This document shows, one piece after another, positions 3,501-61,410 of a DNA stretch of 64,000 bases. The stretch is from a virus. A program made the translations under genes and the position numbers. The stretch is taken from positions 124,001 through 188,000 of IMG/VR virus record IMGVR_UViG_3300031521_001337. The stretch is one strand, 5' to 3'. Position 1 is the stretch's first letter, and each line of letters opens with the position of its first letter. The notes under the pieces are model-generated. The model saw nothing but the letters and a program-made list of their open reading frames with translations. It ran no database searches and was not told where the DNA came from.

Positions 3501-3506
3501 AATATT

Positions 3507-5642: not shown

Positions 5643-5674
5643 TAATTTATGATATTTATTCCAAAAATTATTAT

Positions 5675-5682
5675 TACTTTTG
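5675..5682 (+). promoter_or_regulatory. Bacteroidota-type promoter -7 box (TACTTTTG)
   Basis: TACTTTTG fits the Bacteroides sigma-A consensus TAnnTTTG and lies 25 bases upstream of the lysozyme-type gene, straight after the early terminator. I see no clear TTTG at -33. The same octamer precedes the HNH gene on the opposite strand at 39227-39234. Confidence 0.6.
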
Positions 5683-5707
5683 TGAGTTAAACTAAAACAC
5701 TTTTATT

Positions 5708-6415
5708 ATGCCTAATGAATTAAACCAATTTGCAACATTCAAACCTATAGAAATAGCTAATGACTCTCGAGCACAAGAAGCTAGACAATATTATCAAGAT
5801 AATGGACTTGTTCCAGACAATCCTTTTATGACTAAATTTTTAGATCAAGCTACTACTACACAATCAATTCCTAATATCTCTACACCTAGTAAAGATACCG
5901 ATATAGCTGCGTTATTAGTTAATAAATTAACTAAAGTTCCAATGTCTACTCCTGAAAAAGCATTAAATGATATTAATGTTAATGCTTCTGTTTTTACACC
6001 AAAAGTATCTGTTTCTCAAAAAGCTAAAGAAGCAATTAAATTCTTTATGGGTAAAGGTTATACTAAAGAAGTAGCTTCTGGTATTACTGGTAATCTATAT
6101 GCAGAATCAGGTTTAAATCATATGCGACCTCAAAATAATGGCGGTCCAGGATTTGGTTTAGCTCAATGAGAAGGACCAAGACAAGCGGATTTTAAACGCA
6201 TTATGGGTAAAGATGTACATTCATCTACAGCACAAGATCAATTAGAGTTTATTAATTGAGAATTAAATAATACACAAAAGCATGCAAAAGCAGCTATATT
6301 ACAAGCTAAATCTCCAGCAGAAGCAGCTTATGCATTTGCTAATAAATATGAACGTATGAAGAAATATAATAAAGAACGTGAATCTTACGCTAATACTTTT
6401 TACACAACTAAATAA
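5708..6415 (+). CDS. Phage-lysozyme-type endolysin or virion lysozyme (TGA read as Trp)
   Basis: Reading TGA as Trp gives 235 residues. The first ~100 residues are a Pro/Thr-rich extended region. The C-terminal half matches phage tail-lysozyme domains: AIKFFMGKGYTKEVASGITG, then NLYAESGLNH with the likely catalytic Glu, then GFGLAQW. The Trp of GLAQW is the first TGA (6167-6169); a second TGA (6257-6259) gives INW. With the standard code the domain would be cut in half. It probably cleaves peptidoglycan for lysis or entry. It is on the + strand with its own promoter and terminator, apart from the early operon, so it probably belongs to the late class. Confidence 0.88.
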
Positions 6416-6421
6416 AACAAG

Positions 6422-6459
6422 AAAATCCCCTAGCCTTAACGGTTAGGGGATTTTTTTTT
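6422..6459. terminator. Bidirectional terminator between convergent operons
   Basis: The stem AATCCCCTAGCC / GGTTAGGGGATT (one G-T pair) with a TTAA-C loop is flanked by A-run and T-run, so it can end transcription from both sides. It begins seven bases after the lysozyme stop, and the stop codon of the leftmost late gene lies in its T-run. Confidence 0.92.
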
Positions 6460-23169: not shown

Positions 23170-26100
23170 TTAAAATTTACAATTGTATTGGTTATTATCA
23201 TTTAATCCACTTAATACTAGATTTTTGATTAATGAATTGTTTTTATTAAGTTGAACATTTTTATCAGGACCTAATTCAAATAATGAACTTAGGGCACTAG
23301 TTATATTTAATCCGTCCATCTTTAACACTCCATTTTCAACATCTAAATCATCATAATTTTGATCAATAAATCCATTTATTATTTTGCTTACTACAGCTTT
23401 ACTTTTTTCAACATCTTTTGCTTTGTCAAACAAATTACCAAGTGGAACTCCAAATGTATTACCTTCAAAATCAAATGATATGTGATTTGGTATTTCTACT
23501 CCAACTAATGTTGGTTCAGTTTTTACATTATTAGTATTTACTTCGTTTCCACCAATCTTACTTAATATTTTATCCATATTTAACATAATTTGATTAGGTT
23601 CAACAGGATATTGCATTTCATAATTATTATTAGTAGATACTGGTAATTTACCTTCAAATTCACCACTAACAGCAGGAGAATCAATAATAGTATTGTAATA
23701 GATAGGTTTGTCATAAGTTTGAACAAAACTATTAAATCTAGTTACAGTATCTTCGTATTGAGATTTACCTTCTGTCATTATATTATGTATAACATATAAA
23801 GGATTTGGAATTTTAACAGGTATAACATCTCTAAATCTATTTCCGATTATGGATTTTAATTTAGGATTTTCTAATAAATCATCAAAAGTTTTTTGAGTTG
23901 ATGCATCATTGTTTATAAATCGCCCTAAATCCATTAAAGTTTCTACAATATGAAATGATTCTAAATCATTCTTAGATAAATAATTTTTCCAAGAAATATG
24001 ATTAACCATATCATCAATAATAGTATCAATGTTTTTACCAGCAACTTGTTCAGATTTTAAGAAATCATAGAATACTTTCCATCCAGTATATTTAGACATT
24101 AATGCTAATTTTTTATATTTAGCATCTACATCTGTTTCATGGTCAGCAAGATGTTCTTGATTTTTTAATTTCTTATCAGCTTTAAGTTCTGTATCAGCTG
24201 TAGTTATTTGTGTTCAAGCTTCACTTAAAGTTCTACTTTTAGCATTTAATACAACTAATTTAGAATATTTAATATTTCCTTTAACATATTCAATAGTAAC
24301 ATAAGGTCTATAAGCATATCGGTTGTAATATTCTTCCGAGTTTCTTAATGTGAATTCATCATTAGTTTCATTCTTACCTTGAGTATTATAAGGAGTTTGT
24401 CTGTATTCTTCCATTGTTTTTTTAATATATTTAAGATAATCTCCATTTTGTAATACACCATGTGCATCATATTTTGGACCTCTAAATACTTTAATCTCAC
24501 TAATGAAAGCTCCTGGAAATTTAGCTTTTAAATCTTTTACAGTTATAGCAGAATCCTTTTTAAAGGCATCTTTTTGAGCATCATTCATAGTTGGAACTTG
24601 AACTCCCATATATGTTTTAATATCAGCACTATCAACTGTAATATCTCCTTTACTTGCTAAATCATATAACTTAGAAAGTTTTTCGAAATCAACATTAGCT
24701 TTAACAGCAGGATTTGAAATATCAGGCAATGCTGAAAGAGTTATAAAATGATTTGCACCACCAATTTCAACATTCATTCCAAGAACATAAATATCTTTAC
24801 CTTTTAAAGCATTACTATTTACTAGTTTACCATAAGGATCAGTATACTCTCCACTTTTAAGTTTTCTTATTACTAAATCTTTTTGTTTAGTATCATTATT
24901 AAATAATCTAAAATCATCAGGTCTAGTATAAATTGTGTTATCAATTGTAGAAAATAATACTAAATTTTTCCATTTAATATAATCGCCAACAACATCTCTA
25001 ACACTTTGATCAGATATATTTACTAATCTAAGAATTGAACCTAAATCAGTTCCAGTACTATTCTTTATTAAGTCATCAATATCAATATCAGATCCAATTA
25101 TTTTATCTAAGTTATTAGAAATATCATGAATTCCAATATTATTAAAGAATGAATATCCTAATATATTACTAGGATCTTTAGTTTGAACAGTAGTAGAAAT
25201 TGGAGTAATTATTTCAGGGTCTGAAGTTTCTTTCCAATCGGTATTAAATTTCTCATTTACAACTTTAACATCTTTATGTTTTATAGGATCAGATTGTTTA
25301 TAATCCTTTGTCATATCTGATAATTCATCAATTCTCTTAGTTAAGAAATCTTTAGCTCTATCGTTATCAAATACTTTTTCTTCTGTACTTAATGACATTT
25401 CTGTTTTAATTCCAAAATTATCTAATAGAGTTTTAGAACCAACAATTAAAGTTCCAATTTTAGATCTAGTAACAAGAGTATATAAACTACGTATAGTATC
25501 AAAATCAGAATCAGATATTTTAATTGGATCAAGAATTACTACTTGATCAAATTCTTCACCTTGTACATTTTTAGAATAAACTTTAATGTCAGCAGATTGA
25601 ATACCTAAAGTACTTGTAATTAAAGATTGTGTTGAATCAGATAATTTACCACTATCAGTTAAGAACACAATTTCTTTAGAAGTATCTAATTTTAAAAGAT
25701 CAGCTTTTGTAAGATTATCTACAAACTTATCTCCATTTAAAAATGTTTTATCATAATAAACTAAAGTAGGTCTATATTTAATAGGTTCTTTCAAATATGA
25801 ATCTCTATAAATAGCATCTGTAAAATTCTCCATAAGAATACAATTATCATTATGGTGTACATTCTTAGATCTAATTGTACTTTTAAGTTTAATAGATCTA
25901 GGAGTAGATATATTCTGTGTAGAAAATGATGTAGTACCAATTTTACTTCCATTTTGTAAATTATCACCCATTGCAATAACATAGTAGTTATTGTTTTTAG
26001 CTAGATAATTAAACATTTGCCATTCAAGTGTAGATAATTGACTCATCTCATCAATCATTACAATTTTAGAACCTTCAATATTATGACCTAAGAATACAGA

Positions 26101-29100
26101 ATCTAACCATTTTTCATTTATAGCAACTGCACCATCTCCTTCACCTTTTATAAAAATCTCAGGATTTAAATCATCATATTTATCTTGTTCTATTAAATTT
26201 AATTGTTCCATGTATTCATCATACTTAGAACCAATCATTGTTTTAATGTAGTCTTTAATTAAGTCTTCTTTTATTTCAACAGATACCTGATTCTTTAAAT
26301 TCTCTTTTAATCCAGTAAGTGTTTTAGGTGTTGGTGCTAAAGCATGAATAGAAATATTTTCACTCGGAACTTTAGAATCAATTATCATTCTTAAAGGAAA
26401 GTTTCCTAAAATTGTAGTTTTACCTGTTCCAGCAGAGCCAAGAACATTAAATACATATCCAATAGAGAAACTTCTAGATTGATCAATAGCTTGTTTATAG
26501 GCTTCTTTTTCAGTAATTGTAGTACCTGCATCTTTTGCATCAGCAAGTATAGAATTCTTTAAAGTATAAATACTAGGTTGTACAAACTCTATAGAATGAG
26601 CCATTATATCTTTTCCTAATCTACCATTAAAATAAGCTTGTTCTTGTCTTTGTACAAATTGTTGTACAAAAAATGGAGCTTTTACTTCCGACAAAGATAC
26701 TTCATTTTCTAGTAACTTTTTATAGTTTAGATAAAAATCTTTACTACTAAGAGCCAGTACAGAATGTAAATAAAAATATCAATCTTTTTTCTCAAGTTGA
26801 GTCAAATCCTTTGTCAGATTAGAATCCTTACCATCAATAATTGACTTGATAATATTTTCAGAATTATCATTGCCTTTAAACGGAGCAAAAACTTCATCTA
26901 ATTTGTCTGTCAAGTTTCCTTCAGCATTATGAAAATTAGTATAAATTCTATGTTCAAATTCAGCAAGTTTACTTTCAGCTAAAACTATTTTATTAATAGC
27001 ATCAAGATCATTTTGATTTATTAAAGTTCTTCCATTCACAGTTAGTTTACCTGCTGAAATTTCAGAACCATCAGTCATTCTTTTTAAAATAGAACTAACT
27101 AATGCTGTTTTGATTAAATTATGTTCTTCAATTAAAGATCCAGAGTTTCTTTCTGCAAGAGTTTTAAAATAGTTTAATTTATCTGAAATGAAAGTTAAAT
27201 CATCATTTATGATCTTAGCTGACGTACTATCAACCAATCCAAATTTTCCACTAACTTCTTCGAACTTTTCAGCAGCCATATTTAATGAAACATTATAACC
27301 ATACAAATCACCACCTAATCCTACTTCTGTAGAAGTCATTGCTGAAATTACAGAACGTACAGCAGTTATTGTAGATAAAGCTTTATTTAATTGATCAATT
27401 TGAACATTATTTCTAATAAATTGAGACGGTGCTACAATATTATCAAATAAATCATAATTATCTCTTAATAGTTTAAAGAATGAAATAGGACCTGTTTTAC
27501 CTCATAGATTTATCTGAAACTCATTCAACTTGTCCAAAAACGTATTCATTTTACGTTTATTGTATTTAAGAATTTCATGAATGTTTAAATAGTCTTTATA
27601 TCCACGATCAATTAAAGCTTTACCTAATTCTGAATTTTCATCGAATTCAAAATTATCTAAATCAGGAATTAATGCAGAAAGAGAACTATTTTGAATATTT
27701 ACTCTAATTTCATTAGCAGCATCTGTTAATTCTTTAACCGCTTCATTATCTAAATCTTCACCTCTAGCAATTACATTATTAGCATATTTAATTAATAAAG
27801 ATCTACGTGGTGAAATCTTATCATTGCCTTTTGTAAAAGTATAATAATCATCATCAGAATGTAGCGCTTCATTATAAACTTCTTCTAATTTAGGATCTGA
27901 ATTTCCTTGATTGATAGATATTTGATCCATTTTACTTTTAACAGTAGAATTGAATACATCTTGAATTTCAGTAAGTGTTACATCAGTTCCTTTATTTTGA
28001 ACATAAGTATCTAATGCTGTAACAATATCATGAGTAACTTCATCAGTATCTTTGTCAAATCAGTCTGCTAAAATTTGGTCAGCATCAGAAAAACTAATAA
28101 TTCCATCTTCATTAGTAACACTAGATAATTCATCTAATACTTTATTAGCTTCAACTAATAATTTAGATTTTATTAAATCTTTATTAACAGCTTTCTTTTC
28201 ATATCCATTAACGTGGATTGTTCCAATGTTCCCAATAGTTGTAATTTCACTATCTTTGGCTAAATGTTGCATTAGAACATCTTCTGTAGCTAAATCCGCA
28301 GATTGAGAAATTGTTTCTTTCTCACCCATGATTTGTTTTACTCGTCCATTTTTACTTCCGTTATAAGCATCAAATGCTTTTTGTATAATACCGTAATCTA
28401 ACTCTGTAGACGGAAGACCTAATGAATTTACAATAGCAAATAAATGTTCTTTATCTCCAGTACTTAAAGTATTAATATCCCTCTTTTGATTTAATTCTAC
28501 ATCAGCATTATTAATATCAGTATTAATTTCTTCTTGAAGTGGAGCAATTTTTTCATTTATTGTATTAATTTCATCTGGTTCTGTAACAGTAGATAATTGT
28601 TCTTCTAACTTATTTAATTCTTCAAGTTTAGGATTGATTAAAGCATCACGTCTGTTAATTATTTCAACTTTTTGTTCTTCTGGTAAACCAATTTGAATTA
28701 AATTCATATCGTTTAAGAAATGAGCAACATCAATATCAGTATCAGATGTAAGACTTGCAGTTCTAAAACCATTCTTATCTAATTCAGTATTTAATTGTTG
28801 TAATCATTGTCAGTTAGTATAAGCGTCAGTTAAACTTAAACCTTTACCTTTATTTCTAAAGTTAGCTAAGAATGAACTTCTAGTATTAGCATATCCATCA
28901 GCATTAAACTCTGCAATTGAATGTGAGAACTCTTCATTAATTTCCAAAAATCTATCAAACATTGATTTCATTTTGTTTTTAAAATCACCTTTACTTTCAT
29001 CAAATATATTATCAAATTCTGCTTTATAAGTTTTCTTTTCAGATTCACTAAGTGAATAGAAATCTTTATCATATTTATCTTTAACATAATCGTCAACAGA

Positions 29101-31617
29101 TAAAGAAATAAATGGTGCGTGTAAATTTTTATTTAATGTAAATAGTGATAACTTATGATAGTATTCAGCCTTTTCACCTTTTAATAATTCTTCAACTAAC
29201 TTTCTTTTTTCATTAAGTTTAGATTGAATATCACCTTTACCTACTTCATTTTTATTTACACTTTTATCATCTTTTTCAGTTTGTACATTTTCTAATTGAG
29301 TAGTAAGATCTACAATATCTCCAATTAATTGAGTAAAATCTGATTTTACAAAAGAATCAGTTCCGTTTTTCTTTAAATCAGCAATTCTAATATCATCAAC
29401 AATTGCTTTTCTAATAACAGATTCATCATCTTCTTTTATGTTTTCAAGATTTAAAATTCTATCAGCATTTTGAATATATGCTTTAGTAGCATTAGCAATA
29501 ACATCAGCTTGACTCATTCCACTATCACCATCTTTAGCTAGATAAATTTGTTTACCATCTACATTAGTTGTAACTGGAGATAAATCAGTACTTCCAAATC
29601 TACTTTTTTGTTTATCAATTTCTTTATATAAATCTTCTGCTTGACCATTAGCTACAAGTTGAAGTACATTATATTTTGTTTCTTGTTCAATACCGTGTCC
29701 AGATAAAATAGGTGATATAACTGAATGTTCTAATTCAAACATAGGTCCTCCAACCATACCTCCAACTAAGTTAGATACATAACGTTCAAATCCTGATTTA
29801 CTAAATACATTATCAAATCCTCCAAATGAACCTTGTTTCTTAGTAAATCCACAAGCACTCATAATATCAACAATACCTTTAGCTGCATCAGAAGCAAGTT
29901 CTTCTGAAACTTCTTCAATACCTTCAATCATTGATACTTTAAATAATTTTTCAGCTAATTGACTTTCTCCAATAGGTTGTGTAATTAAATTTTGAAATCC
30001 TTGTTTAGCTTTTGAAAATACATTCCCCAATGCTTTTTTACCAGCAATTTTATCTGTTGCAAGTAAATTAACAGCTTCTTGTGTTTCACCCATTAATTCA
30101 CGAGTAACACTTCTAATTCCAGCTTTATTAACTTCTTCAGTATAACCTGTAGATTTATCTAAAAACCAGTGACCTAAATTATTATTCTTCATTAAAGCAT
30201 ATTGACCTGATGCGGCTAATAATGCAGCAAAACCTGCTGTTCTATTATCATATCCTCCAGCTTTAGCATCACCATAAACATCAGCAGATTGCGTCATAGC
30301 CATGTAACCTAAGTTTAATGTTTCAGCTAATTGTGATCGTTTATGATTTATAGATTCAAGTGTTCCAATTTTATCGTAGGCAACTTGAGCAAGACGTTCG
30401 TAGTTTTCTTTACTTCTAGTTATACCTTTTACAGCATCACCAATAGCAACATCTTGAAGAATATCTTCAGTTTGATTAGCTAATTTTGCTAAATATTCAG
30501 TCTCATGTGACTTATAAAATAAATTAGACAAACTACCAGCAGCACGTTGTTCATAGATTTGTGAAAAAGTATCTGCAACCATACTTCCCATTTGTTCATA
30601 ATTCCACATAGATTGTGAACCCGCATCTGAAATACTTCTAACATCATATTTAGAAAGATATCCTTGTGCAGTATTCATTGCTTTCCATAGTGATGTTTCA
30701 TTACCTTTTTCAGTATCACCTGTAAATAATGCTTCTGCGGCTTTATAAAAAGTTGGAAGTACAGTAGCTAAACCTAATGCCATTTTCATTCCACCATAAT
30801 ATACATTAACTCCAGGAATTAAATAAGGTGCAACTTGTGTAGCAAGTTTCATAGTAGTCCCAAATACAGATTTATCTTTACCATCAGAATCAAAGAAATC
30901 TACTTTATTTAATTTAGAACCATCAACAGTAATTAAATCCATAGGATTTACTATTTGTTTACCATATACTTCACGTTTACCAAGTGTTTCAATATAAAGA
31001 TTTCCATCTTTATCATATTTCCAATCACCTTTTTTATGATTTACATGTCTTTTTGTCATAGGATCTATATCAGCACCATCTTCATCCCACTGAGCATAAA
31101 CCATTGTAGGTCCCACTAAAGAACCCATTAAACCCATGTCATTAGCTGATTTATCTAATCATTGTTTAGATTCAGAATCATATACTTTTGATTGTTGAGC
31201 TAATTCTCTTAAAGATAAATCAGATACATCAATACTATTTATTCCAGTTTTACTATATAATTGTTTAAACGGATTATAATCCTTAGTTATAACTGGAGCT
31301 ACATCTGCACGTAATGCTCCTTTTGGAGCAGTAAAATCTGTTGGATCATATTCTAACGCTTTAGCTAAAGCTTTATCATTTCCTAGGTCATTATACAACG
31401 ACGCAGCTTTTTGATAAGCTGCGTTGAAGGTTTTGTCATCGAATTTACCAGATGCATCTTTAAACATCGATTGAACTTTATCTAATTTTTTATAATCGTC
31501 CATAGGTAATAGTTGAGTATTACTTGGAACAACATTAGAACTAGCTAAATCGAATAAATTTAAATCTGGTTTCTGCACTAATGCAGAAAATATATCATTT
31601 GGTTTTGTAATTTCCAT
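23170..31617 (-). CDS. Giant virion protein with SF1 helicase-like ATPase domain (TGA=Trp)
   Basis: 2,815 residues with TGA as Trp. N-terminal third: Gly/Ala-rich hydrophobic segments at about residues 240-290 (PYLIPGVNVYYGGMKMALGL), suggesting membrane contact. Middle: long helical, Lys/Glu-rich regions. C-terminal half: Walker A GSAGTGKT at 1727-1734, Walker B-like VMIDEMSQ with DE at 1856-1857, and VTRSK near 2047, the order of superfamily 1 helicases of the RecD/UvrD type. It may help DNA or protein entry, or early transcription, from within the virion; this is inference from its place just upstream of the RNA polymerase gene. TAA at 23170 and ATG at 31617 bound the gene. Confidence 0.85.
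31401..31424 (-). other. Perfect stem-loop inside the helicase-domain giant gene
   Basis: ACGCAGCTT and AAGCTGCGT form a nine-pair stem with a six-base loop, about 193-217 bases after the start codon. Confidence 0.75.
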
Positions 31618-31625: not shown

Positions 31626-33479
31626 TTATTTACTATTGAAAAAACTGAAATCAGCTTTAACTTGTGGAGTTTCATATTTTTGCAGATCTACTCTAGCATC
31701 TGTTAAGTTTTGTTGTTTATTCTGCATATGACCTGCAATTGAAGCAGCATATATAGAAGCATCTCGTTTATATGGAACTGCAATCATTCCTTTATAATAA
31801 GTGGTTGTCATATCAGTTCAACCAGTAGGAGCCTTAACTTTATTATCTTTTCATACTGTTTTTAAAGCATCTGATACAGTATCTTGTTCTTTACTGTCCA
31901 AGGCTTTAACTTCAGAATTATTATCTGCTTCAGAAGCACCTTCAGCAGTATAACCATACATTATTAAGAATGGTTTTATATTATTGTTTTCTCGTACTAC
32001 AAAATCATTACCAACTTGAACATATCCAAATCCATGACGTTTGTAATAATCATTGATTATAGCAGGAGACCAATCATTTTTATGTTTTTCAATTTCTGAT
32101 TGAACTTCATTAAATTGTTTAAGTGCATTATAATTAACAGTACCATCATTATTAGACGGCATATATACTTTAGCAGCAGTTCCACCATCATAAATAATAT
32201 CATTAGCGCCTTTCATTCCAATAATTTTATCACCAAATGTAGCCTTACTCATATCAACAAGAGAACCATTTTTAGAATTCATTATATTTTTAAATGTAGT
32301 CATACCTAATGGAGTTCCATCTTCTGTAGCTAATCTTGCAGCACCTGTAACATGTAATATCATTTTCTTATTAGTTGTAATATCATTTCATTGCATTGGA
32401 GCTGAACCAGTTTTGCCATTATGTAATAATTCAAAAGGTGATACATTAGCTAATCCTTTTGCCGCGGCTGAAGCTTCTTCTGTAGCTCCTGGTAATTTCT
32501 CTGGAGAAATCGCAGAAGATGTTTTAGCAGTTGTATTAGTAATCAACATATCTAATATAAAATCTCTTGGATCTTTACCACCATTAACTATAGCAGTTGC
32601 TTTTAGTTTTTGTTGAGCATGAACATCCATTGTTTTTCATAAATAGTCTAAAGCTTTATCAATATGATTTCTTTCTGAACTATTTTCTGTAATAACTTTA
32701 TAATGATCTCCAGGAGTGTTAATTATTTGATTTAAACTTTCTAAAGCAGATTGTTGTTCTTTTGTTGGACCTTTTACTGATACTTGTGATTTTAAAATAT
32801 CATACTGTCCTTTAACTTGATCTTTAGAATAAAAATTTTCATTATGAGTATCTTCTGTTCCTAAAGAAGCAATTAAATCTTTAAGATTAGTTTTTATTTT
32901 ATCTAACCCAATAGCATTATTTGCAACATCAAATATTGAATTTTGTCCTGATAATTTAGGATTATATTGTCTTTCATTTAATAACTCTGCAACAGATAAT
33001 AGTTTATATTGATCTTTGTGTTTATCGTATTCGTTAACGTTAATTGCACTAACATTTCCTTTAGCATCTTTACCATAAACCATATCATTATTTACAGCAA
33101 CTTCACCATAACCTCCTGCAGCAGTAGCTGTTTTAGCAGCTTCATCTCAAGCAGATTTACTTTGTTTAAGTTCATTAATTTTACCAACTAATCTTAATGA
33201 CATTGCTCTATTATTACTTTGAGCATATGGATACATACTTCCCGAATTAGTTGATTCAATTTTAGCTAATTCAGAAACAAATCCGTTAACATCATTTACT
33301 AAACCTTTACCCATTAAATCTTTAAATACATCATCATCTAACATAGATGAAATAGTATGTTTACTTTCTTTAGATGAACTAGATGATGAAGAAGTTGCTT
33401 GTACAGGTTGTTGTTCAATGATGGGGGTGAATGTTGCAAACCCACCCCCTTGTTGAAATTTATTTATATTATATTTCAT
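31626..33479 (-). CDS. Late virion-associated protein with FQQGGG N terminus (TGA=Trp)
   Basis: 617 residues. The N terminus MKYNINKFQQGGGFATFTP carries the short FQxGG tag seen on several neighbours, followed by a Ser-rich linker (residues about 30-37). The rest has no motif I recognise. It lies between the 2,815-aa and 1,302-aa genes, eight bases from the first and sharing one base (TAATG) with the second, so it probably belongs to the same packaged-protein set. TGA codons at 31851, 32388, 32637 and 33147 (low coordinates) are read as Trp. Confidence 0.78.
33423..33449 (-). other. GC-rich stem-loop at the start of the 617-aa gene
   Basis: GGGGGTG and CACCCCC form a seven-pair, almost all G-C stem with a 13-base loop, 30-57 bases from the start codon. 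Confidence 0.7.
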
Positions 33480-36400
33480 TATTTTGCATTTACTTTCTTA
33501 TTGTTTGATGCTATTGTCTCATAAAATAATTTATCTGAATCTAAAGCATTTGTTTCAGTTTGACTCAAATCTATATTATGTTTATCCACAGGATTATTAA
33601 CACTATGAATTACTTTATAAAATTGTTTTCTGTCTGCTTCTACTTTTTTAGCTATTTGTCCACCTTTCTTTAAAGATTGTCCGTACATCATAGCCATTTG
33701 AATATTTTTTAAACGTTCATTAAATGGTTTAATTTGAGATTCTTTAGCTTTAAGAGCAGTTTGTCATTTAGCATAATCAGATGATTTTTCCCAATCAATA
33801 GGAGTTATTCCAGGAGTTTTCATTTGAGTATCATAATTCTTTCTAAATGAATTATTAGTTTCATCAGCTAATGTATTATACTCTTCACCTAATTGTTTAT
33901 ATTTAGGATCTTGTAAAATATTAAACATTCCAGTTTGACCTTCACGTTGTTTTTTCATTATATCGTTTTTCTGATTAGCTAATAATAGAACATTAAGAGC
34001 TGTATTCTGAGCTGAACTTTGAAGCGCATTTATTCCGTGGATTTTTCCAAATGCGTTAGCGGCTAAACCTCTATTCTTACCAAGAACTTCAGTATTATAT
34101 TTAGCGGTATTAGCGTTCATTTGTAATTGTTGTCCACGCATTTGATCAAGTCTTTGAGTATCTGCCATTTGAGCTTTATCTTTTAAAATATTACCTTGAT
34201 TAATTCCAGATAATCTAACACTAAATCCTTTATCAATGTCAGCAGTTGAAGCAGCCATTCTAGCAGTTTTACTGTTAACAGCAGCAGCTTGTTTGTCAGC
34301 TTCTAAAGTATGTGGTCTATCAGCTCTAATATAAGTATTTGACATATAAGGTAATGTGTACATACTATCTGCAACACCTTTCCTTTGAGCATTTCCAATA
34401 TCTTTATTAGTTCTAACTGTATTTAAATACATTGCTGTATTTAATAAATCAACTTTATTAAGTTTAGGAAATTTAATTCCTTCACTTTGTTTATTAACTG
34501 TTGTTCCAGATTGTGTAGTTGGTGTAGTTGTGTTTCCAAATAAATTAGTTGGAAGTTTTACTGCGGCAACATCAAATCCTTTATTTTTAGGTTCTAATCT
34601 TGTAGCAGATTCATTAAATTTATTAGTCATATAATTATGATATGGACCATATTTATTATCAGTAGCTAATCCTTTAACTTGTGCTAAATCTTTTACTGAT
34701 ACATTACTTCCAGCAGATTGAATAAATTTATTTAAATCTTCTTTATTTCTAGCTAACCAATTTTCATCAAGACCATTAACAAAATTAGTGTATTCAGGAG
34801 TATACCCTCCATCTTTAGTTTGCCATGTAGATACATCTTTTAAATCACTATAAGGTAAATAATTACCTGAACCTGGATGTTTATATGTAGTATTAGCTGT
34901 TGGTGCAACTGTAACTTTAGGTGCAATAGTACCAACTAATTTAGTAGGAACAATTGGTTTATTAATAACAGGTGCAGATATAATAGGTTGTTTTGTAGAA
35001 TCAGGCAATGTCATAGATTGACCTTTATTATTAGTAAATGTATGACCAGAAGCTCCGATTGTTTCATTAGTAAATCCAGCCTTTCTAAGTTTACCTTCTT
35101 TTAAAGCTTTATCTAATACAGAAAAATCCATTTTAAATGCTCCACCTTGTTGGAATTGTATAACTCCACCTTCTTTATGTTCTACCATATTTTTATTATA
35201 TTTGTTTCAGGCTTTGTTTAAACTTATTTTTCTTTTATAATCAGTGGCTTTATTAGCTCTATCTAATCCAAGAATAGCTTTTACTTTAGGATCTTTAAGT
35301 TTTTCTAAATTCTTTTGTTCACCTTGACGTAATTTACTAATAGCACTTTCTTGGAATTTCTTACCATATCAAGAACGTGGATCAGATTCTTCTTTTATAA
35401 CTCGTTCTGATTTAGCTTTGTTATCATTCATACCCGTAACCTTAGCTACTTTACCTTTAATACCTAACCAACCTTTATCAATTTTAGCAGCTTTTTTAGC
35501 TTCATCAAGAGTTTCTATTTCAGCTTTAAGTTTAGAAATAGCACCTTCATCAGGAGTTTCTTTTGCATTTAAAGCATCTAATACTGATTTTTTAGGTGCA
35601 ATTACTTTATCAAAATGTTCATTAATTGCAACTTCTGGATCAGTTCCTTTAGGAATTGTAATTTTAGATTCAACACCTTCTGGTACATTCTTTAATTTAA
35701 AGTCCGTACTAGCTTCTTGTGTTTGAATTTTAGTAGTTCCAGCGTGTACTTGTGCTAAATTATATAAACCTTTAACAGCTTGCACACCATGTACTAAACC
35801 TCTAGCATCTTGAATAGAAACATTTCCTAATCCACCTTCTTCTATATCTTGTGCAGTTTGTCTAGCAGCTGTTCCAGCATTTACTAAACCATAACCTAAA
35901 AATGCAGGTTTTGCTAATTTTGCAGCTTTTGATACTATTGATGATGCTGGTTTGAATGCTCCTTTTACTAAAGCTTTAGTTTCTGGAATTCCATATTTAG
36001 CAATTTTAGCAACTTTTTCAACTTCACTTAAACCCTCAGCTGATTTTACAATAGCTTTAGCTCTATTTAAATTTAATAATTCTTTACCTACTAATTCAAC
36101 ACCTTCTGCATCTTTAATTGCAGTTTTTGCAATTTTAAGAATATGTTCAGCCTTTTCAGCTTTAGTTGCAAGTTTAGCTATTTCAATACCTGTTTTAGCA
36201 CCTTTTAAACCAAGTTTAGCAGATGCTGCTCCTGGAATTAATGATAATGCTGTAAATCCTAAATTCAATGCAGCATTTCCAGCAGTTTCTCCAAATCCAT
36301 GTCCACGTAATATATCTGAACCTAATGTTGCAGCTGTTGATGTTAAACCTCCTGCAAGTCCGGCAGCGGTTCCACCTAAACTTACAACATCTCCACCTAA

Positions 36401-37387
36401 TGCAATAGCATCTAAATAATCTGCTGTAGATCCTTTTCCAGATAACATATCTCCAACTTTACCACTACCTGTAGCAGTTGGTTTTTCTTTTGGATGAAAA
36501 TAAGTTGTAGTTGTTTTACGAATATATGCTTGTGGTTTATGTGGTGTTGGTACTACTGGTGCAGTTTTTGCAGCAGTTGCTGCTGTTAAAGCAGCTGCAT
36601 CATCAGCAGCTTTCTTTTCTGCATCTAATTCAGTTTGTGTTTTTGGTGGAATCAAATAATCATTCATTTTCCAACCTAATGCATATGCTTTCTCAGTTAC
36701 TTTATCCCAATTAGGATTTGGTTCACTTAAAGCAAGTTTTAATGCCTGAGCATTATCGTAATCTTTATAATCGTAAGAATCTTTATTCTTAGTGTAATCA
36801 TTTAAATAATCATCAACTCCTTCTTTTGCCCAACCTAATACTCTAGCTTTTCTTTCATCATTAGTTTTGAAAGTATTTAAATGTGTAGCAAGTGCATTAA
36901 CATCATCATGATAATGTTTATTTGATACAATATTAGTTAAACCTTGTACTTCTTTTGAATACCCTGTTTGCGCTGTTGGAGTTGTAGTAGAATTTGTTGA
37001 CTCTATGTGTGTTCTTAGTGCATTCATTGCTGAACTAAGTGATTCTTTATCAGCATCATTACCTCTAATCTTAACACCTAATCCTAACATATCTTTACTA
37101 AGAGGTTCGTCATGACCTGTTCAGTTGAATTTCTTTAATTCTTCTGGAAGTTGAGATGTGTCAATACTATATGTTTGATCTGGATTAAATTTTAAAGCTT
37201 TATCCATAGCTCCACTTTTTACAAGAGCAGCTACTTGATCGTAAGCAGGCTTAGCTCTTCTAGCTTCTTTAGAAGACATCGAATACAAATTATCGTATAA
37301 TGCCTTTTCTACCTGAGAATAATCTTTTGGAGTATTATTTGGATCAGGAGCTTTACTTCCCGTTTGTAATTTTCTTACTAATGCCAT
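33479..37387 (-). CDS. Large late protein with membrane-active-looking segment, possible internal virion protein (TGA=Trp)
   Basis: 1,302 residues with TGA as Trp. The N terminus MALVRKLQTGSKAPDP fits the neighbouring tag pattern. Residues about 320-400 are Gly/Ala/Leu-rich and hydrophobic (ALGGDVVSLGGTAAGLAGGL), followed by an Ala/Lys-rich helical stretch, a layout like ejection or pore-forming internal virion proteins. A second tag-like segment, FQQGGAFKMDF, begins near residue 744, so the protein may be a fusion or may be cleaved. The C-terminal part is Asn/Thr-rich. Start ATG 37387 follows an in-frame TAA; it shares one base with the next gene. Role inferred from position and composition only. 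Confidence 0.78.
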
Positions 37388-37414
37388 GTTTATAATTTTT
37401 TTAAATTAAACAAT

Positions 37415-37448
37415 AAAAGGGAAACAGGTTTTTTACTGCTTCCCTTTT
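37415..37448 (-). terminator. Hairpin terminator or attenuator between two late genes
   Basis: AAAAGGGAAaCAG and CTGcTTCCCTTTT form a strong stem with a loop of about eight bases in the 70-base gap between the 98-aa gene and the 1,302-aa gene. On the - strand it is followed by TATTGTTT, a weak U-tract, so partial read-through is likely. Confidence 0.7.
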
Positions 37449-37457
37449 AAGGTAGGC

Positions 37458-37754
37458 TTATTTTCTGCCCACGAATACTAGTTTACCGCCTTTTCTTTGG
37501 TAAGTAGGTTGACCTTGTGCTTCTGGAGCTCCACCTTGTTCACCTTGTGCACCTTGAAGCATTTGCATGATCATTTGTGCTAACATAGCAGCTGCTTCTG
37601 GTCCTAATTGTTGAACAATTTGTTGTGCCATTTGAGCAACTTGTTCTTCTGCTCCACCACCTTGTTGTCCACCTTCTGCAGGTGCTGCTGCCGGAGCTGC
37701 ACCTTGTTCTGGAGCAGGAGCTGCTCCACCTTCTTGTAAAAATTTTACTTTCAT
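37458..37754 (-). CDS. Small Gln/Gly/Ala/Pro-rich late protein
   Basis: 98 residues, starting MKVKFLQEGGAAPAPEQG with the FLQEGG tag, then a low-complexity Gln/Gly/Ala/Pro region, a helix rich in Met/Gln (LAQMIMQMLQGAQ) and a basic tail ending KGGKLVFVGRK. It is clearly higher in G+C than the surroundings. No Trp is present, so the code does not matter. It is probably a structural or packaged peptide; function unknown. Confidence 0.75.
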   Translation of the reverse strand: MKVKFLQEGGAAPAPEQGAAPAAAPAEGGQQGGGAEEQVAQMAQQIVQQLGPEAAAMLAQMIMQMLQGAQGEQGGAPEAQGQPTYQRKGGKLVFVGRK

Positions 37755-37762
37755 TTTAATTA

Positions 37763-38341
37763 TTAATTTTTGGATTTTACATATTCAGGATCAGTTTCAG
37801 ACTGTACCTGTAAAAACTTAAACATTCTTTTACCTAATGTTTTGTAATCATTATCATTATTAGTTATTGCAGCTTTTTTCGCAAACTTAATTAATGTTTT
37901 AGTATGTGTCCGACTAAATATTCTTTCACCACCAACTAATTCCATTTGAGAATTTCCTTCTGCATCTAACACGTGCATTTTATCTGATTTTAGTTTATTA
38001 TCAGGTTTGAATTCTAGTTCATCACCTTCTTTAACTCCAGAATCTTTGTTTAATTCTAACACATACATCACATTTTGTTCTGTGATTAAGTCTTCTGATT
38101 CAGGTACTCCTTCATGAACTGATATAACGTTCATTTCTTCATCTATAAAAATTATATCTAATGGAATATGAGTATCTTTCATATAGAAAGAAATCTCATC
38201 AGGCTCATTAAATATAAATAACATTCCTTCGTTTTCAGGTAATTCAGTTACACCTTGTAATCCTTTATCATGATCTTCATCAGATTCAGCAAGTTTAACC
38301 GTATATTCTTTATTACCAATCTCTATTTTTATTTCTTTCAT
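37763..38341 (-). CDS. DUF192-domain late protein
   Basis: 192 residues. The first ~110 residues match DUF192: KGLQGVTELPENEGMLFIF, then FYMKDTHIPLDIIFID, with the family's conserved Met-Lys-x-Thr and Pro-Leu-Asp. Bacterial DUF192 proteins are mostly exported small beta-barrels of unknown function. The C-terminal ~80 residues are an extra basic, helical part not typical of the family. It sits between small late genes and overlaps the next upstream gene by 13 bases. No signal peptide is visible. Confidence 0.82.
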   Translation of the reverse strand: MKEIKIEIGNKEYTVKLAESDEDHDKGLQGVTELPENEGMLFIFNEPDEISFYMKDTHIPLDIIFIDEEMNVISVHEGVPESEDLITEQNVMYVLELNKDSGVKEGDELEFKPDNKLKSDKMHVLDAEGNSQMELVGGERIFSRTHTKTLIKFAKKAAITNNDNDYKTLGKRMFKFLQVQSETDPEYVKSKN

Positions 38342-38589
38342 TTGGTTAATATCTCAGGGATAATACTATTTAAAATTCCTCCATTTTCATGATGTCATTT
38401 TTTTGCATTTTGAGCAAAAATTGCACGTTTCTTCGTTAATGGATTTTTACTATGTGTAAGTTCTTCTGTAGATTTTCCAGTTTTCTTTTTAGTTGCAGTA
38501 AATTTTCCTTTATTTGCAGGATTAATATGAATACCACCCGATTTAAAACTTTGGATATTATTCATTTGATTTGATATTGTATATTTCAT
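38329..38589 (-). CDS. Small late protein of the type ending in KKRAIFAQNAKKW
   Basis: 86 residues with TGA as Trp. It begins MKYTISNQMNN and has QSFKSGGIHINPANKGKF, then a Lys-rich segment with NPLTKKRAIFAQNAKKW, a pattern I recall from small proteins common in Bacteroidota phages. The Trp of AKKW is TGA (38395). A second TGA at 38338 would be the stop in the standard code (ATGA overlap with the next gene); read as Trp, the protein ends at TAA 38329. It is basic and possibly DNA- or capsid-associated; function not known. Confidence 0.68.
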
Positions 38590-39205
38590 AATTTTTTATA
38601 TATTCATTAATTAATCGTTGAGATTTTATATCTCCATCATGAGCAATATAATGACAATATATACACAAAGTTATTCCATTAGTTTCATCAAATTCTAATG
38701 AGTTATCAATTGATTTTGGAATAATATGATGAGCATGTTGTATAGTTTTTTCAGAATTACCACAATTTTGACAAGTATAATTATCTCGAGTTTTTACTAA
38801 TTTTCCTCATTTTCTAAATGCGTCTTTTCTTCCTTCAATATGATTACATTCTTTTCATTCATAATGATTTTTACCTATTGTGTATTCTTCTGAACATTTT
38901 TTACAACAGAAATTATTTGTAGAATTAATAAGATGTTCTTTTCTATTAAAATTTGAACCACAATTAGTACATTGTATTGCTATTATATCTGAACTTTTAT
39001 TTTTAACTTTACATTCATGCGAACAAAATTTAGAATCTCTATATTCTTGAACTTCATACTCTTTATTACATTCTTCACAAATTAATATCTTTCTTAATTT
39101 TCTAGAATTATGTGAACATTCTTGACTGCAATATTTTCTAGTTTTTATCCCTTGAAATTCAGCTCCACAATGTTCACATATTTTAGATTCTTTCTTATAA
39201 CCCAT
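38558..39205 (-). CDS. HNH homing endonuclease with zinc-finger N terminus (TGA=Trp)
   Basis: 215 residues. The N-terminal ~115 residues hold three Cys-rich units (CEHCGAEF..CSQEC, CEECNKEY..CSHEC, CTNCGSNF..CKKC), likely zinc fingers for DNA binding. The C-terminal part has an HNH core: CQNCG, then HAHHIIPKS, then CIYCHYIAH. TGA codons at 38855 and 38807 become Trp and join the two halves. It has its own promoter-like box (39227-39234) and its end overlaps the start of the next gene by 32 bases. It looks like a free-standing mobile gene inserted between late genes; no intron boundary is evident. Confidence 0.85.
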
Positions 39206-39226
39206 ATTTTATTTTTTGATATTATA

Positions 39227-39234
39227 CAAAAGTA
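39227..39234 (-). promoter_or_regulatory. Promoter -7 box (TACTTTTG) upstream of the HNH gene
   Basis: On the - strand TACTTTTG preceded by ATTATTA repeats the box at 5675 and lies 22 bases before the HNH start codon. It fits the Bacteroidota TAnnTTTG consensus. It suggests that the endonuclease, and perhaps everything downstream, has its own transcript. Confidence 0.55.
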
Positions 39235-39288
39235 TAATAATTTTTCCATATAATATCTATAAACTGATTAAATTTTTAATTACAAAGA

Positions 39289-40428
39289 TTAAGCTTCAAC
39301 AGTTTCTATAAGTCCTGTATTGTCTTGAGTATTTTCTAATATCTCATAAACTAACAACTTACCAGCTTTAAGTGCTATGTCTTCATCTCCATCTTTATAT
39401 TGTTTAAACATCTCTTCTAACTTGTCTGTAACATCTTTATTAAAAATGATTTCATTAAGTTCAATTTCTGCGTGTTGAGTTATAGCACCACCTTCATCCA
39501 TTGTTACAACCGGAATACCTTTATCAGTAACTTGTTCTGAAATTTCTTCTGGCAGATCGTGTTTTCTAGCATGTAATGCTCCATCAGGTATAACATTAAA
39601 TTTACCACCATCTTCAAATACATCTATTTCAGGAACTTCAATTACTTCTATGATCGGTTTAACTCTTAAAGAATAATTAACCCGATTTTTAATATTAGTC
39701 ATTTGTAGTTTACTTCCGCGTTTTGCAGCTAATATATTAGTTGTTATACCTCCAAACAATTTCTGTTGATTTTTGGTAGCGATGTCTCCAAATGAATTCG
39801 CAGAAGCTAACATATTCTGTTTACTTTGAAACATAGAATTACCCGCAAGTAAATTCTGTTTATCATCATATTTAGTCAAATTGTTAGCATTTCTAGTTTT
39901 ACCAGCTCAAGTACCTAATAAAGTCTGTTTCTTTCCAGCATTAGTATTCATATTAAATGAATATGCTCCAGTATCTAATCCAGTAGTACCTTGCTTTTTA
40001 GCTGTAGTTCCTGCAAATTTATTTAATGTTGTAAGAGCAGTAAGACCAGCTCCGATTCCCATTAATGCAGGATTACCAGATTTAAGCATCATACCAGCTC
40101 CTTTATCCATAAGTCCCATTGTACCCTCTTCTAAATCTGAGCCAGTTTCAGCACGTTTTAAACCTGCTGCTTGTAATCCAGTTTCTAATAGTTGTGGAGC
40201 TTCTCCAAGTATTTCAGATCCTACAGAAGCAGCGGGTGCTGCTCCTGGGATTTGTGTTGAACCTGATTTAATAGTAGATCCATTTGCATTCATACCTAAG
40301 TTTTTATTAAGTCCTTTTATAATTTTATTTATATCTAGACTATTTGTAGATAAATATGAATTCTTAGAACTTAATTGTTGTAAAGATCCAGATGGTGTTT
40401 GATATTTTTTAATTAATTCTTTAGGCAT
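39289..40428 (-). CDS. Late structural or assembly protein (TGA=Trp)
   Basis: 379 residues after joining two fragments through TGA at 39907. N terminus MPKELIKKYQTPSGSLQQL; the middle is Gly/Ala/Leu-rich with a hydrophobic segment (GNPALMGIGAGLTALTTL). Further on are VFEDGGKFNVIPDG and HARKHDLPEE, short patterns I associate with Bacteroidota phage late proteins, then an acidic C terminus. It overlaps the 1,419-aa gene by eight bases. Function unknown; a packaged or tail-associated protein is likely by context. A small inverted repeat AGCAGC-GGGT-GCTGCT lies at 40228-40243. Confidence 0.75.
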
Positions 40429-54082: not shown

Positions 54083-55513
54083 CTAAACTTCTTCAATAAT
54101 GAATGATTTATAAGGAGCGAATGCTGCAATACCAGAGTATCCTGCAACGATCAATTTAGATCCTGCGATTGGAGAACTAACGATACCACTAGTGATACCA
54201 TCTACACCACCAACACCTGGATATTTAGATGTTACAAATTCTGCACCTTCTAATGTAAATGCTGCGATAGCTGGTTGATTTGTTGAAACGTCAGGTGACA
54301 TATCAAGACAAATACCGTATCCTTTTCTATCATATTCTTTAGTAAGAGCACGATCAACCATGAATGTTACCATATTACCGGCAATTTCATAAGAAGTGAA
54401 AGTTCCACCAACTTTGATAGGATTATCAGCTTTAACCATTGATTGAGCTGCTTTAGAATACATCATTGTTGGAGTTGATCCCCACAATTTCAACCAGTCT
54501 CCTAAAGTAGAGTTAATTTGACCCCAAAGTCTATCATTAACAATAAATGTGTAACTGTTACCAATTGCATTTGCTGCTTTTTGATTCATTTGATCAATTA
54601 CTGTATTGATGATGTTTACATTCAATTTAGCATATTTATACTTAGATGCAAATCTTTCGATTTGAGGAATAAGACCATCACCCGCGATAAGTGGACGACC
54701 ATCTTCTGTAAGTACAGTAGATTTACCATTAACATCCATAGTTGTTTTTCCCCATAGTAAGTGGTTATTTTTAACTGTTTGGAAGTTTTCAAACAAATCT
54801 TTTTCCATTTTGTTTAACTTAAAGATCTTTTCTTTCAAGTCTCCAGCTCCATCTCCTGATGCAATTTTGATAAATTGATCTTCCATTTGAGCATAACGAG
54901 AAGAGTAAGAAATGTCATTTCTATGTTCTGTGATCCATTGACGATGTTTTTCAATGTTTGATTGATACTTAGTATAACCTTCTTCATGGTACTCAGGCAT
55001 AATATTAGATAAGAAACGAGTTGTTCCACCTACTTGACATGCTGAAGCATCAAGAATTGAAGAGAAATCTGCATCAATTAATTGAACCGTATATTCCCAG
55101 AATACATCTGCTTTTCTTTGTGGGGTTGCTTTAACAATACATTGCTGACGCGATCCGTCAATTTTGAATGTATCATATTTTTCATAATATCTTTCTTTGA
55201 AATACATTATGATATCTGCACCACCTGCACCAGTACCCGTTGGTGCTGCTGCGAATTCAACTCTTTTTACGAATTCTACATCAATTTCCCATTCTACCAT
55301 TAAGGTATTAAGTGGTTGAAATTTATTAGCTGTTTTAGAGTTGTAATAAATGTTCATTAAGGCTTCTGTTAAGAAAGTCGCTGTATTATGTGTATACATG
55401 CGAGCCATAACTCCCATCATTTTAGGACGAGTTCCTAAAAGTTTGTAGAAATCCTCATAGGTTCTACTGTGTGCCAATTCTGGCTTTACGTTAACGTAAC
55501 TTGCTACTACCAT
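54083..55513 (-). CDS. Probable major capsid protein
   Basis: 476 residues, one uninterrupted frame ending in TAG. All seven Trp codons are TGG; there is no TGA. The N terminus MVVASYVNVKPELAHSRTYE and the C-terminal Gly-rich segment (KYPGVGGVDGITSGIVSSP, then YSGIAAFAPYKSFIIEE) resemble crAss-like capsid proteins. Length, the upstream acidic scaffold-like gene and a strong private terminator all support this role. A perfect 14-base palindrome (55486-55499) lies just inside the gene. Confidence 0.82.
   Translation of the reverse strand: MVVASYVNVKPELAHSRTYEDFYKLLGTRPKMMGVMARMYTHNTATFLTEALMNIYYNSKTANKFQPLNTLMVEWEIDVEFVKRVEFAAAPTGTGAGGADIIMYFKERYYEKYDTFKIDGSRQQCIVKATPQRKADVFWEYTVQLIDADFSSILDASACQVGGTTRFLSNIMPEYHEEGYTKYQSNIEKHRQWITEHRNDISYSSRYAQMEDQFIKIASGDGAGDLKEKIFKLNKMEKDLFENFQTVKNNHLLWGKTTMDVNGKSTVLTEDGRPLIAGDGLIPQIERFASKYKYAKLNVNIINTVIDQMNQKAANAIGNSYTFIVNDRLWGQINSTLGDWLKLWGSTPTMMYSKAAQSMVKADNPIKVGGTFTSYEIAGNMVTFMVDRALTKEYDRKGYGICLDMSPDVSTNQPAIAAFTLEGAEFVTSKYPGVGGVDGITSGIVSSPIAGSKLIVAGYSGIAAFAPYKSFIIEEV
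55486..55499. repeat. 14-base perfect palindrome TTACGTTAACGTAA
   Basis: A self-complementary 14-mer within codons 5-10 of the capsid gene. It could be a protein-binding site or chance; it encodes Tyr-Val-Asn-Val-Lys without strain. Confidence 0.6.
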
Positions 55514-58622: not shown

Positions 58623-61410
58623 ACTTTTCCTCCAATTGTTTTATTCTTGATTCAGCACTAGCAAGTTTTGCTATTATCAAGTCAATGTATTTTACTTTAT
58701 ATTCACCCTCTCTATTTCCAACTACAAATTCACTAAATCCATTAGATAATAAATCTTGAGCAATAGTACCAAATCTTAATTCTTCTAAGTTATTTTTAAA
58801 ATTAAATGAAACTAAATTGAGCCTACTATAGTCTTTAATGATTGGTTGAATATTAGTCTTTAAAGTTCTATCTGACGATAAAATAAAATTACTAGCAGTA
58901 ACATTACCATTGAAATGAGAATTATCACTTCCATCAATATAAAATGGAGTTGTACCATCGGAAGCATTTCTAATTGAAAATCCAGTGTTTGAAATTCCTT
59001 GTATTGAATTTTTAATATAGTATTGCTTAACTCCTGCTTGTGAACCTTGTAATTGTATTCTTGCCTCACCTCCAACATCATTTCTAATTAGCACAGCACT
59101 TTTGTTAATTAGAGCAATATCACCTGTTCCACTTTCAGCACTAATATATACTGCATTGCCAGTAAACTGTAAGTAACCTTGTCTAACTGTATTTGCTGAA
59201 TTATAACCACTCAAATAAGCGGCATCAGCAATCATTTTTATTCCCTCACCTGCATAAGTATTAACAGTTCCAGTTGCCATTAAAGTACCATTCACTGCCA
59301 ACTTATACCCTTGGTCAGAAATATATCCAATCCCAGTATTACCATTAGGGCTAATATAAAACCTCCCAATATCGGGTACTGTATTAGCACTTTGGGTTGA
59401 TTGAGTAGTAATTGCAAAATCTCCATAAGACTGATAATCTGTATGTATGAACCATTTCCTAGAACTACCATTAGATACATTATGGTCAAATGATAACATT
59501 CCTACCCAACCTGAACCGCTAGGCAATGATAATCTTCCGTTAATTCCCATCCCACCATTAAGAACTAATGCTCCTGTTGATGGTGATAGTGATTGAGTTG
59601 TGTTTGGTATACTTACTACTCCATTACTTTCAATAGTCAATAAGGGAGTAGTTGCATAATTAAAAGTAAAGGCTTTGTTTCCCCACTGTCCAACAGAATT
59701 AAAAATCATTGACCCATAATTATCTCCACTACTAATAAAATAGTCAAAAGAAGAACCTGAACCAAATTTTAATTTACCTGAATAATTATTAGATGGTATA
59801 TTAATAGCAAAATAATCACCTCTAGCTGATGCATTTGTCCCATCATCACTTATCAAACTATTTACAAAATTACTCCCATTCCATTTAGGAATGTAGTTTG
59901 TTGATAAACTTGATAAATCTTGTGTAGCAATATTATTTACGCCAATAAAATTTCTAATTTGAGTACTAGTAGCAGGACTCATTCTAGCATTAGGGGCATC
60001 GTATACCATTACATAACTTACCGTAGACGCAAAATCAGCGCCATAGTATTTTAAACCATTTACCATTTCAGCATTCAAATTCCCCACCATAGTAGTAGAA
60101 TTTACAGTTAATGGTGCTGTTCCAGTTGCTACTGTTGATTGTAGTTGAGTTGCATTTACTGTAGAAGTAAAAGTTACTGCTCCTGTTTTACTTAACCTAA
60201 ATCTTTCTGTATAAGTATGTGCAATAGCTTCTGTATTGTATGCTCTAGCATCAGAATAATCAATTACTAAATCAGTACCACTTCCACTGTATTTGTTGGC
60301 AATTCTATAAACTCTTTGGTCAGTTCCACCATCGGCATATAAGTACATAGCACTACCATAATCAGAATCCAATGCTCTTAATTCAACACTATGATATGTT
60401 ACACCAAATTTGCCTTTTCCATACGCTGTAACATCCCCACTAATCCACATATTTGCAGATTGTGCAGAGCTATTTTGGTTTAATATGTGGTCGTTATTGT
60501 TGGTATAAGCCGATGAACCTAGACCTAACCAAGATTGTATTTGATTTTGTGTAAAATTATAAACATATCCGTTAGAGTAACCTCCTAGTAAATTAGTAGG
60601 TACGGATTGATTAGCAGTTCCATTATATACTGTTCCTAGTGTTATACTAGAGCCTAAAGTCCCACTAGAAGATACAAAGTCTCCAGTGTTACTACTGGCT
60701 GCTGAACCGAATGTTCTAGTAGGTAGTGGAGTATAACCTAAAGCAGTAGTAACCATTCCTGAGTTGATACCAGTTATCCATCCACCGTAGTTACCAAGAT
60801 TATTATTAAATTGACTGAGATTAGTAGGTCTTGCTGCTGTCAATGCATAAGGTGCTAAACTACTTGCAGTTATAAAACCATTTGGATTAGTTGAATTATA
60901 AGGTACATATCCCAAAGCATTAGTAACAAGTGTTGAACTAATTTGTGTTAATGCTCCATTCTCAACACCAATCAATCTATTATTCATTTGATTGATTGTG
61001 TAGGCATTGAATGTATCAGTTAATGTTGCATTACTGAAAGAACCACCTAAATTAGCATAACCGAATACTGTTTGTATTAGTCCACCAGATCCAGAACCAC
61101 CAGAAGTAACACCAAATGCACAAACTTCACCTTTAACAGATAAATTACCATTACTATCTAAAGTCATTAAATCAGTGAATGTTCCATCTGTATTAACAGT
61201 TGAAAAATTTCAACCATTATCGGTTAACAAATAATTAGAAAGTGGTAATTTTATCACACCATTAGCACCAGCCAAATTAGTTGACTGTGCTACTAATGAT
61301 AAATAATTAAGTGGTACATAAGCACTACCAGAACCACCAGAACTATAATTATTAATAGCAGTAGTTGTTGAACCTCTTTGTAAGGCTATATTTTTACTTT
61401 GAAATTCCAT
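58606..61410 (-). CDS. Tail fibre with C-terminal Peptidase_S74 chaperone domain
   Basis: 934 residues. The long N-terminal and central part has fibre-like repeats (ALGYVPYN, ALGYTPLP, SGTLGSSITLG) typical of trimeric beta-rich tail fibres. The last ~75 residues are an intramolecular chaperone, with the self-cleavage region SSDRTLKTNIQ and FGTIAQDLL, and a terminal coiled coil (AKLASAESRIKQLEEKY). The domain folds the trimer and is then cut off. Only one Trp codon is TGA (61210-61212, NGWNFS); the other seven are TGG, unlike most late genes, which may mean recent arrival from a standard-code source. Confidence 0.88.

Follow-up and report, generated by a model that had tools for sequence, protein, structure and literature searches.

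A conserved Lys-aromatic-Gln-x-Gly-Gly motif at the start of clustered late proteins in a crAss-like phage

Tagged genes at the locus

The window, a stretch of 64 kb corresponding to positions 124001-188000 of the 213,486-base virus record IMGVR_UViG_3300031521_001337, contains a cluster of eight late phage genes, several of whose otherwise unrelated products begin with a similar short peptide. This peptide can be summarised as [IV]-x-K-[FLY]-Q-x-G-[GS] and is called the tag here. The cluster lies on the minus strand and encodes, in order, a muzzle-like protein of 1419 amino acid residues (aa), a 379-aa protein, an HNH endonuclease, an 86-aa protein, a DUF192 protein of 192 aa, a 98-aa protein, a 1302-aa protein, and a 617-aa protein. 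Proteins of 2815, 2984, 1022, and 1556 aa follow on the same strand. Since the gene order after the muzzle gene is that of the phage crAss001, the 1302-aa and 617-aa proteins are called C1 and C2, respectively.

With a strict pattern ([KR].?[FYLM]Q.?G[GS] within the first 30 residues), the tag was found in only 3 of the 286 open reading frames (ORFs) called in the whole record, against a mean of 0.13 in shuffled sequences. The three ORFs belong to adjacent genes and all lie inside the eight-gene cluster (hypergeometric p about 1.5e-5). In window coordinates, the tag KFQQGG occupies residues 7-12 of C2 (33444-33461; gene 31626-33479), RKLQTGS, with the strict match KLQTGS, residues 5-11 of C1 (37355-37375; gene 33479-37387), and KFLQEGG residues 4-10 of the 98-aa protein (37725-37745; gene 37458-37754). 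An earlier sequence-only reading had listed five shared N-terminal peptides between 33400 and 40428, an interval that begins inside the C2 gene. All five peptides are present, and those of C2, the 98-aa protein, and C1 are the strict tags just described. The fourth, KKYQTPSGS of the 379-aa protein (residues 7-15; 40384-40410), is a looser variant; in its family, K[FYLHG][QE]x1-3G occurs in 16 of 60 N-termini, while the shuffled mean is 0.84. The fifth, FKSGG of the 86-aa protein (38533-38547; gene 38329-38589), belongs to a separate, related internal motif class (FKxGG-xHI). Among close relatives it is not kept as an N-terminal tag; what they conserve is GGxHIxPxNKGKFT, and the nearest ones keep GIHIxPxNKGKFT. 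The HNH endonuclease gene (38558-39205) overlaps the 86-aa gene and splits the cargo cluster.

The late genes use TGA as a tryptophan codon (genetic code 4), and all five peptides can be read only in this way, on the minus strand. Two other readings were rejected: under table 11 the 617-, 1302-, 379-, and 86-aa frames are broken, and frames in the window remain broken when TAG is read as glutamine. A tRNA with the anticodon UCA is encoded at record positions 30014-30087, outside the tagged cluster.

Conservation among relatives and wider occurrence

The major capsid protein (54083-55513) is 51% identical to its counterpart in phage MT835470, a protein that itself has matches among annotated crAss-like major head proteins (E-values down to 9e-9). 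By this homologous major capsid protein the phage belongs to Crassvirales. Is the tag conserved in its lineage? The relatives use either the standard code or TAG as glutamine. A human-gut relative with the standard code has the same cluster, with RFMQQGG on the 98-aa homologue, RKYQTGG on C1, and KLQGGG on C2. Another human-gut relative, with TAG as glutamine, also has the cluster, with KKFQEGG on the 98-aa homologue and KFAEGG on C2; C1 is absent there. Using the alignments of the DUF192 and 379-aa proteins as scan queries, I obtained about 70 further loci of the lineage. The family counts below refer to unique sequences from about 50 unique relatives.

The strict tag is present in 50 of the 51 members of the 98-aa family (shuffled mean 0.14), in 28 of 49 C2 proteins (42 with a medium pattern; shuffled mean 0.12), and in 17 of 57 C1 proteins (27 with the medium pattern; shuffled mean 0.08). 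Thus, the recurrence of the N-terminal motif, which had been suspected from a single genome, holds in relatives: 95 of 157 sequences in the three families carry the strict tag, while about 0.3 were expected. Neighbouring genes served as controls, and the total there was 1 in 161, from the muzzle (1/57), the first large protein after C2 (0/49), and the DUF192 protein (0/55). When the N-termini are centred on the motif, the consensus is Ile or Val at position -6, Lys at -4 (103 of 124), Phe, Leu, or Tyr at -3, and Gln at -2, followed by any residue and the two glycines. The Gln and the Gly-Gly are invariant in the 98-aa family (51/51). In the C2 alignment the two glycines are conserved at 93% and the lysine at 85%, while the mean column reaches 36%. 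A proline often following the tag, as also claimed at first, is seen chiefly in the 98-aa family (KFQEGGAMP). The glycine codons of the tag are a mixture of GGT, GGA, GGC, and GGG, and its glutamine is written as CAA, CAG, or reassigned TAG, the last often in phages that read TAG as glutamine. Thus, selection acts on the peptide, and the DNA is not conserved.

Related motifs were also found more widely. MT835470 has a further tagged protein, MATKFQQGG, encoded near the terminase genes. N-terminal xFxxGG motifs are also present on C1 proteins of Steigviridae; the C1 of cr106_1 begins with RKFAEGGG, and gp45 of crAss001 has an N-terminal IFDTGG. A viral collection was scanned for KFQ[EQ]GG encoded at most 35 bases after ATGA, and motifs with permuted residue order, scanned in full, were used as controls. 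A match was counted as truly N-terminal when it lay at most 15 codons from the first ATG after a stop in an ORF of at least 50 aa. A narrower first pattern had given 4 matches. Among the matches listed, 49 of 121 were truly N-terminal, in about 10 unrelated viral protein families, whereas the two permuted motifs gave 9 of 106 and 8 of 78 (pooled 17 of 184). The pooled Fisher p of about 2e-10 is optimistic, because matches include homologues. Among these, some genes starting with KFQ[EQ]GG follow virion structural genes. Three other viral proteins with this start (L171, L196, and L179) end in YAKGGMAKGCK, FKKGGMIKKGKK or DGIAKRGRTKCTVY. Paired N- and C-terminal Gly-Gly (GG) motifs may therefore be common. 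Literature searches returned nothing on such a tag, and in the library searched no paper has KFQEGG, KFQQGG, KLQQGG, NVIPEGALHA, or FQEGGAMP.

Module anatomy and identity of the tagged proteins

The 98-aa family has two marked ends. From the N-terminal KFQEGG the chain passes through a linker of Ala, Pro, Gln, and Gly into a predicted helical hairpin, and from there through another linker to PVYRKGGKLV at the C-terminus. Conservation is seen at both ends and variation in the Ala/Pro/Gln linkers, which is the layout of motif-linker-domain proteins. In the window protein the C-terminal counterpart is YQRKGGKLV (residues 85-93; 37476-37502). AlphaFold2 predicted the helical hairpin and a C-terminal beta-hairpin that turns at the Gly-Gly (pLDDT of this block about 80), while the N-terminal tag was predicted without structure. 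A GG motif near the C-terminus was found in 48 of 50 proteins of the 98-aa family, 36 of 59 C1 proteins, 5 of 6 homologues of the 86-aa protein, and 1 of 53 C2 proteins. In C1 of the window the C-terminal counterpart is LKKGGQI (residues 1239-1245; 33653-33673).

The tag had been described as N-terminal, and this is too narrow in view of the C-terminal counterparts and of internal copies at fusion joints. Fused C1 proteins commonly have two GG motifs close to each other at the join of their C1a and C1b parts, an arrangement kept in most fused relatives. In the window, the back-to-back motif HKEGGVIQFQQGG lies at C1 residues 737-749 (35141-35179), where HKEGGVI meets QFQQGG; equivalents are found in the relatives L023 and L024, and joins in relatives read KQGGEI-PKFQDGG and KEGGKIE-FLQQGG. 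Four relatives have a C1b-C2 fusion, with an internal tag precisely where the C2 domain begins (for example RRYQQGGVAPF at residue 585). The motif lies 560-616 codons into the fused genes. It follows that the tag moves together with its module and can do without a free N-terminus.

What are the tagged proteins? According to the crAss001 structure paper (Bayfield et al. 2023, PMC10172136), the genes of that phage run from the muzzle gp44 through the cargo proteins gp45 and gp46 to the polymerase subunit gp47. The same paper gives gp45, gp46, and the RNA-polymerase subunits as virion cargo, and reports that gp45 binds the portal and that its portal-bound residues 425-552 form one compact domain (PMC10172136). 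I found three GG motifs (FGG, QGG, and EGG) within this domain. C1 is linked to gp45 in two steps, since C1 residues 853-920 match cr4_1 gp24, which is homologous to gp45; the direct profile match of C1 with gp45 is weak (probability 10.6%). C2 is the positional equivalent of gp46, and no homology between them was detected with hhalign (probability 0.3%); cr4_1 gp25 likewise fails against gp46. The 86-aa protein matches gp45 residues 372-431 (phmmer E 1.2e-8). Its homologues in cr1_1, cr4_1, cr52_1, and others lie between the portal and major capsid genes and are annotated as "transcriptional regulator". This annotation is probably wrong, the same domain being part of the crAss001 virion cargo protein gp45. 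PHROGs and Pfam contain no useful families for C1, C2, the 98-aa protein, or the 379-aa protein.

The C-terminal domain of the 379-aa protein (39292-39639) opens with Phe-x-x-Gly-Gly and is highly conserved (FxxGGKxNVIPDGALHARKH ... KGIPVV ... QHAEIExNEIIF). It has no family, PDB sequence, or fold match. By eye, its GG..P..G.. pattern resembles the portal-bound domain of gp45; this candidate was rejected after it failed in hhalign, hmmsearch, a PDB sequence search, and Foldseek.

The 2815-, 2984-, 1022-, and 1556-aa proteins have no RNA-polymerase match in PHROGs or Pfam and no D-x-D-[GA]-D motif. Their RNA-polymerase label is putative and comes from gene order. The 2815-aa protein (23170-31617) has an AAA_30/UvrD-like helicase domain at residues 1722-2054, which is unexpected for a cargo protein at the polymerase position. 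The untagged DUF192 protein (37763-38341) lies between tagged genes in most relatives and has a conserved extension, GGERIFSRxxTKxLI.

The record itself has some irregularities. A 1,945-base tail-fibre stretch occurs in three copies at 100% identity, one in the window (58881-60825, or record 182881-184825) and the others at record positions 6236-8180 and 211542-213486. Record positions 1592-8180 are repeated at 206898-213486 (6,589 bases, 99.9%), and an apparent set of tape-measure, portal, prohead-protease, and capsid genes of a different phage type lies outside the window. A chimeric assembly, with the fibre repeat as the point of joining, is possible for this record; the joints would be far from the tagged cluster. 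A tmRNA gene (record 68160-68566) and about 24 tRNA genes (76584-88810) were also noticed.

Possible roles of the tag and known systems

The sequence-only reading had proposed a packaging or processing signal for virion cargo. What stands of this is a conserved tag on genes that lie between the muzzle-like gene and the genes for the putative RNA-polymerase subunits, where crAss001 has its cargo genes gp45 and gp46. Sequence alone cannot demonstrate either packaging or processing. Tentatively, I favour the view that the tag is a short linear docking (address) motif on ejection and cargo modules. Gene order and partial homology suggest that the 98-aa, C1, and C2 families are internal to the particle. 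Some of these internal proteins would have modules that start with [IV]-x-K-[FLY]-Q-x-G-G, a basic segment resembling a beta-strand and closed by a Gly-Gly turn, and many would end with another form, [YFL]-[KR]-x-G-G-[x]-[ILV]. Inside the virion lumen the tag would bind one shared surface, which might be the portal, the tail barrel, or the 98-aa protein itself, and this surface would capture the strands during head assembly. The 98-aa protein could be a two-ended adaptor. C1, C2, and their small partners would then gather at the portal vertex of this phage and exit first upon infection.

Several points weigh against such a docking role. The putative RNA-polymerase subunits, whose crAss001 counterparts are cargo, are untagged (0/49). 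Thus, the tag is not a general packaging signal, and the claim of a general cargo tag was dropped. About half of the C1 N-termini have no tag. The docking partner is hypothetical. The assignments of C2 and of the large proteins come from gene order, as neither homology of C2 to gp46 nor a match of the large proteins to an RNA-polymerase family was detected, and the virion role of some tagged families outside the lineage is presumed. In repetitive, Gly-rich proteins such as these, the GG forms inside the chain and at the C-terminus may be no more than ordinary turns.

A serious rival is a purely structural role, which I regard as possible though rather improbable. The GG beta-hairpins would be mere caps or linkers of modules within elongated Gly-rich lumen proteins, a structural role inside the chain with no address function. 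This is consistent with the hairpin predicted at the C-terminal copy of the 98-aa protein and with the frequency of xFxxGG in 30-aa windows, which is 4.6% inside C1 and 10% in the 379-aa family against 1-2% in muzzle, RNA-polymerase, and other proteins. However, it leaves unexplained the high conservation of the Gln and Lys and the position of the strongest copy, which opens the 98-aa protein ahead of a linker that is variable and disordered.

Processing is unlikely. In this reading a phage or host protease would cleave at the Gly-Gly, either while cargo is packaged or afterwards, and the mature proteins would be the same whether their modules are fused or separate. Gly-Gly cleavage of virion proteins does occur in some eukaryotic DNA viruses, and the fusions and fissions of C1a with C1b and of C1b with C2 fall at tagged joints, commonly with two close GG motifs, as cutting would predict. 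However, in the substrates of the known Gly-Gly proteases (C39, adenovirus-type, and papain-like LxGG enzymes) the hydrophobic residue is the fourth before the cut (P4), whereas the tag has its hydrophobic residue at P5 and Gln at P4 (in the 98-aa family, 51/51). A search of 11 records gave no C39 peptidase, several of which are perhaps fragments, while the same search gave control matches in 8 of 14 genomes. A search for C48-like proteases also gave 0 of 11, and the control genomes gave no match either. The crAss001 paper mentions no tag, signal, protease, or cleavage under the terms searched, and the GG-containing residues 425-552 of gp45 are described there as one folded unit (PMC10172136).

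It is very improbable that the tag arose by chance from low-GC coding bias at 5′ ends and Gly-rich composition. Loose forms are indeed common (8 of 286 ORFs record-wide with the medium pattern, 5.1 in shuffles), and AAA, TTT, and CAA codons are expected at A+T-rich gene starts; yet the strict counts in the three families, the control neighbours, and the permuted motifs, whose matches are not all independent, speak otherwise. Chance is refuted for the 98-aa, C2, and C1 families and applies at most to the single 86-aa copy. Hardly credible is a translation or transcription element at the gene start with an incidental peptide: the motif does lie near the start codon, and CAAGGAGG would look like a Shine-Dalgarno box, but the Gly and Gln codons are mixed and the motif also occurs deep inside fused genes.

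The docking motif may be put in a wider form, which is doubtful at present: Lys-aromatic-Gln-x-Gly-Gly would be a portable virion-lumen address across unrelated tailed phages, marking ejection or internal proteins both in crassviruses and in other phages of the collection. It would be effective at either end of a chain or within it, so that cargo modules could be freely fused, split, and added. Crassviruses rank with the most abundant phages in the human gut. With a conserved motif of ten residues marking a defined subset of cargo genes, the loading of cargo in these phages can be tested directly. The tag could also help to recognise internal virion proteins where the late proteins of a phage have no family matches, as here, and, if portable, it could serve to load proteins into phage particles.

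How does the tag compare with known systems? The T4 capsid targeting sequence is the N-terminal signal of T4 internal proteins and is cut by the gp21 protease. Like it, the tag is a short N-terminal peptide on unrelated, clustered phage proteins, here of putative particle-internal status. Unlike it, the tag ends in Gly-Gly, occurs internally at fusion joints, and is paired with C-terminal forms; no gp21-type cleavage site or protease came to light, no search aimed at such a protease having been made in this lineage. Membership among T4-type capsid targeting sequences is not claimed for a tag known from sequence alone. The double-glycine leaders of bacteriocins and secreted peptides, which are substrates of C39 peptidases, are also short N-terminal segments ending in Gly-Gly; however, the tag has no hydrophobic P4 residue, stands inside fused proteins, and is not accompanied by a C39 peptidase in the 11 records. 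The tag does not belong with the C39 leaders. The cargo-loading peptides of encapsulins, which address diverse proteins to the shell, are likewise short and linear, but they are usually C-terminal and differ in sequence. As for crAss001, gp46 has no Gly-Gly (FVSGAKFRPF), gp45 has no Lys-Phe-Gln core, and no homologue of the 98-aa protein was noticed; yet its gp45 and gp46 follow the muzzle in the same gene order, and gp45, besides its IFDTGG start, has many internal GG motifs.

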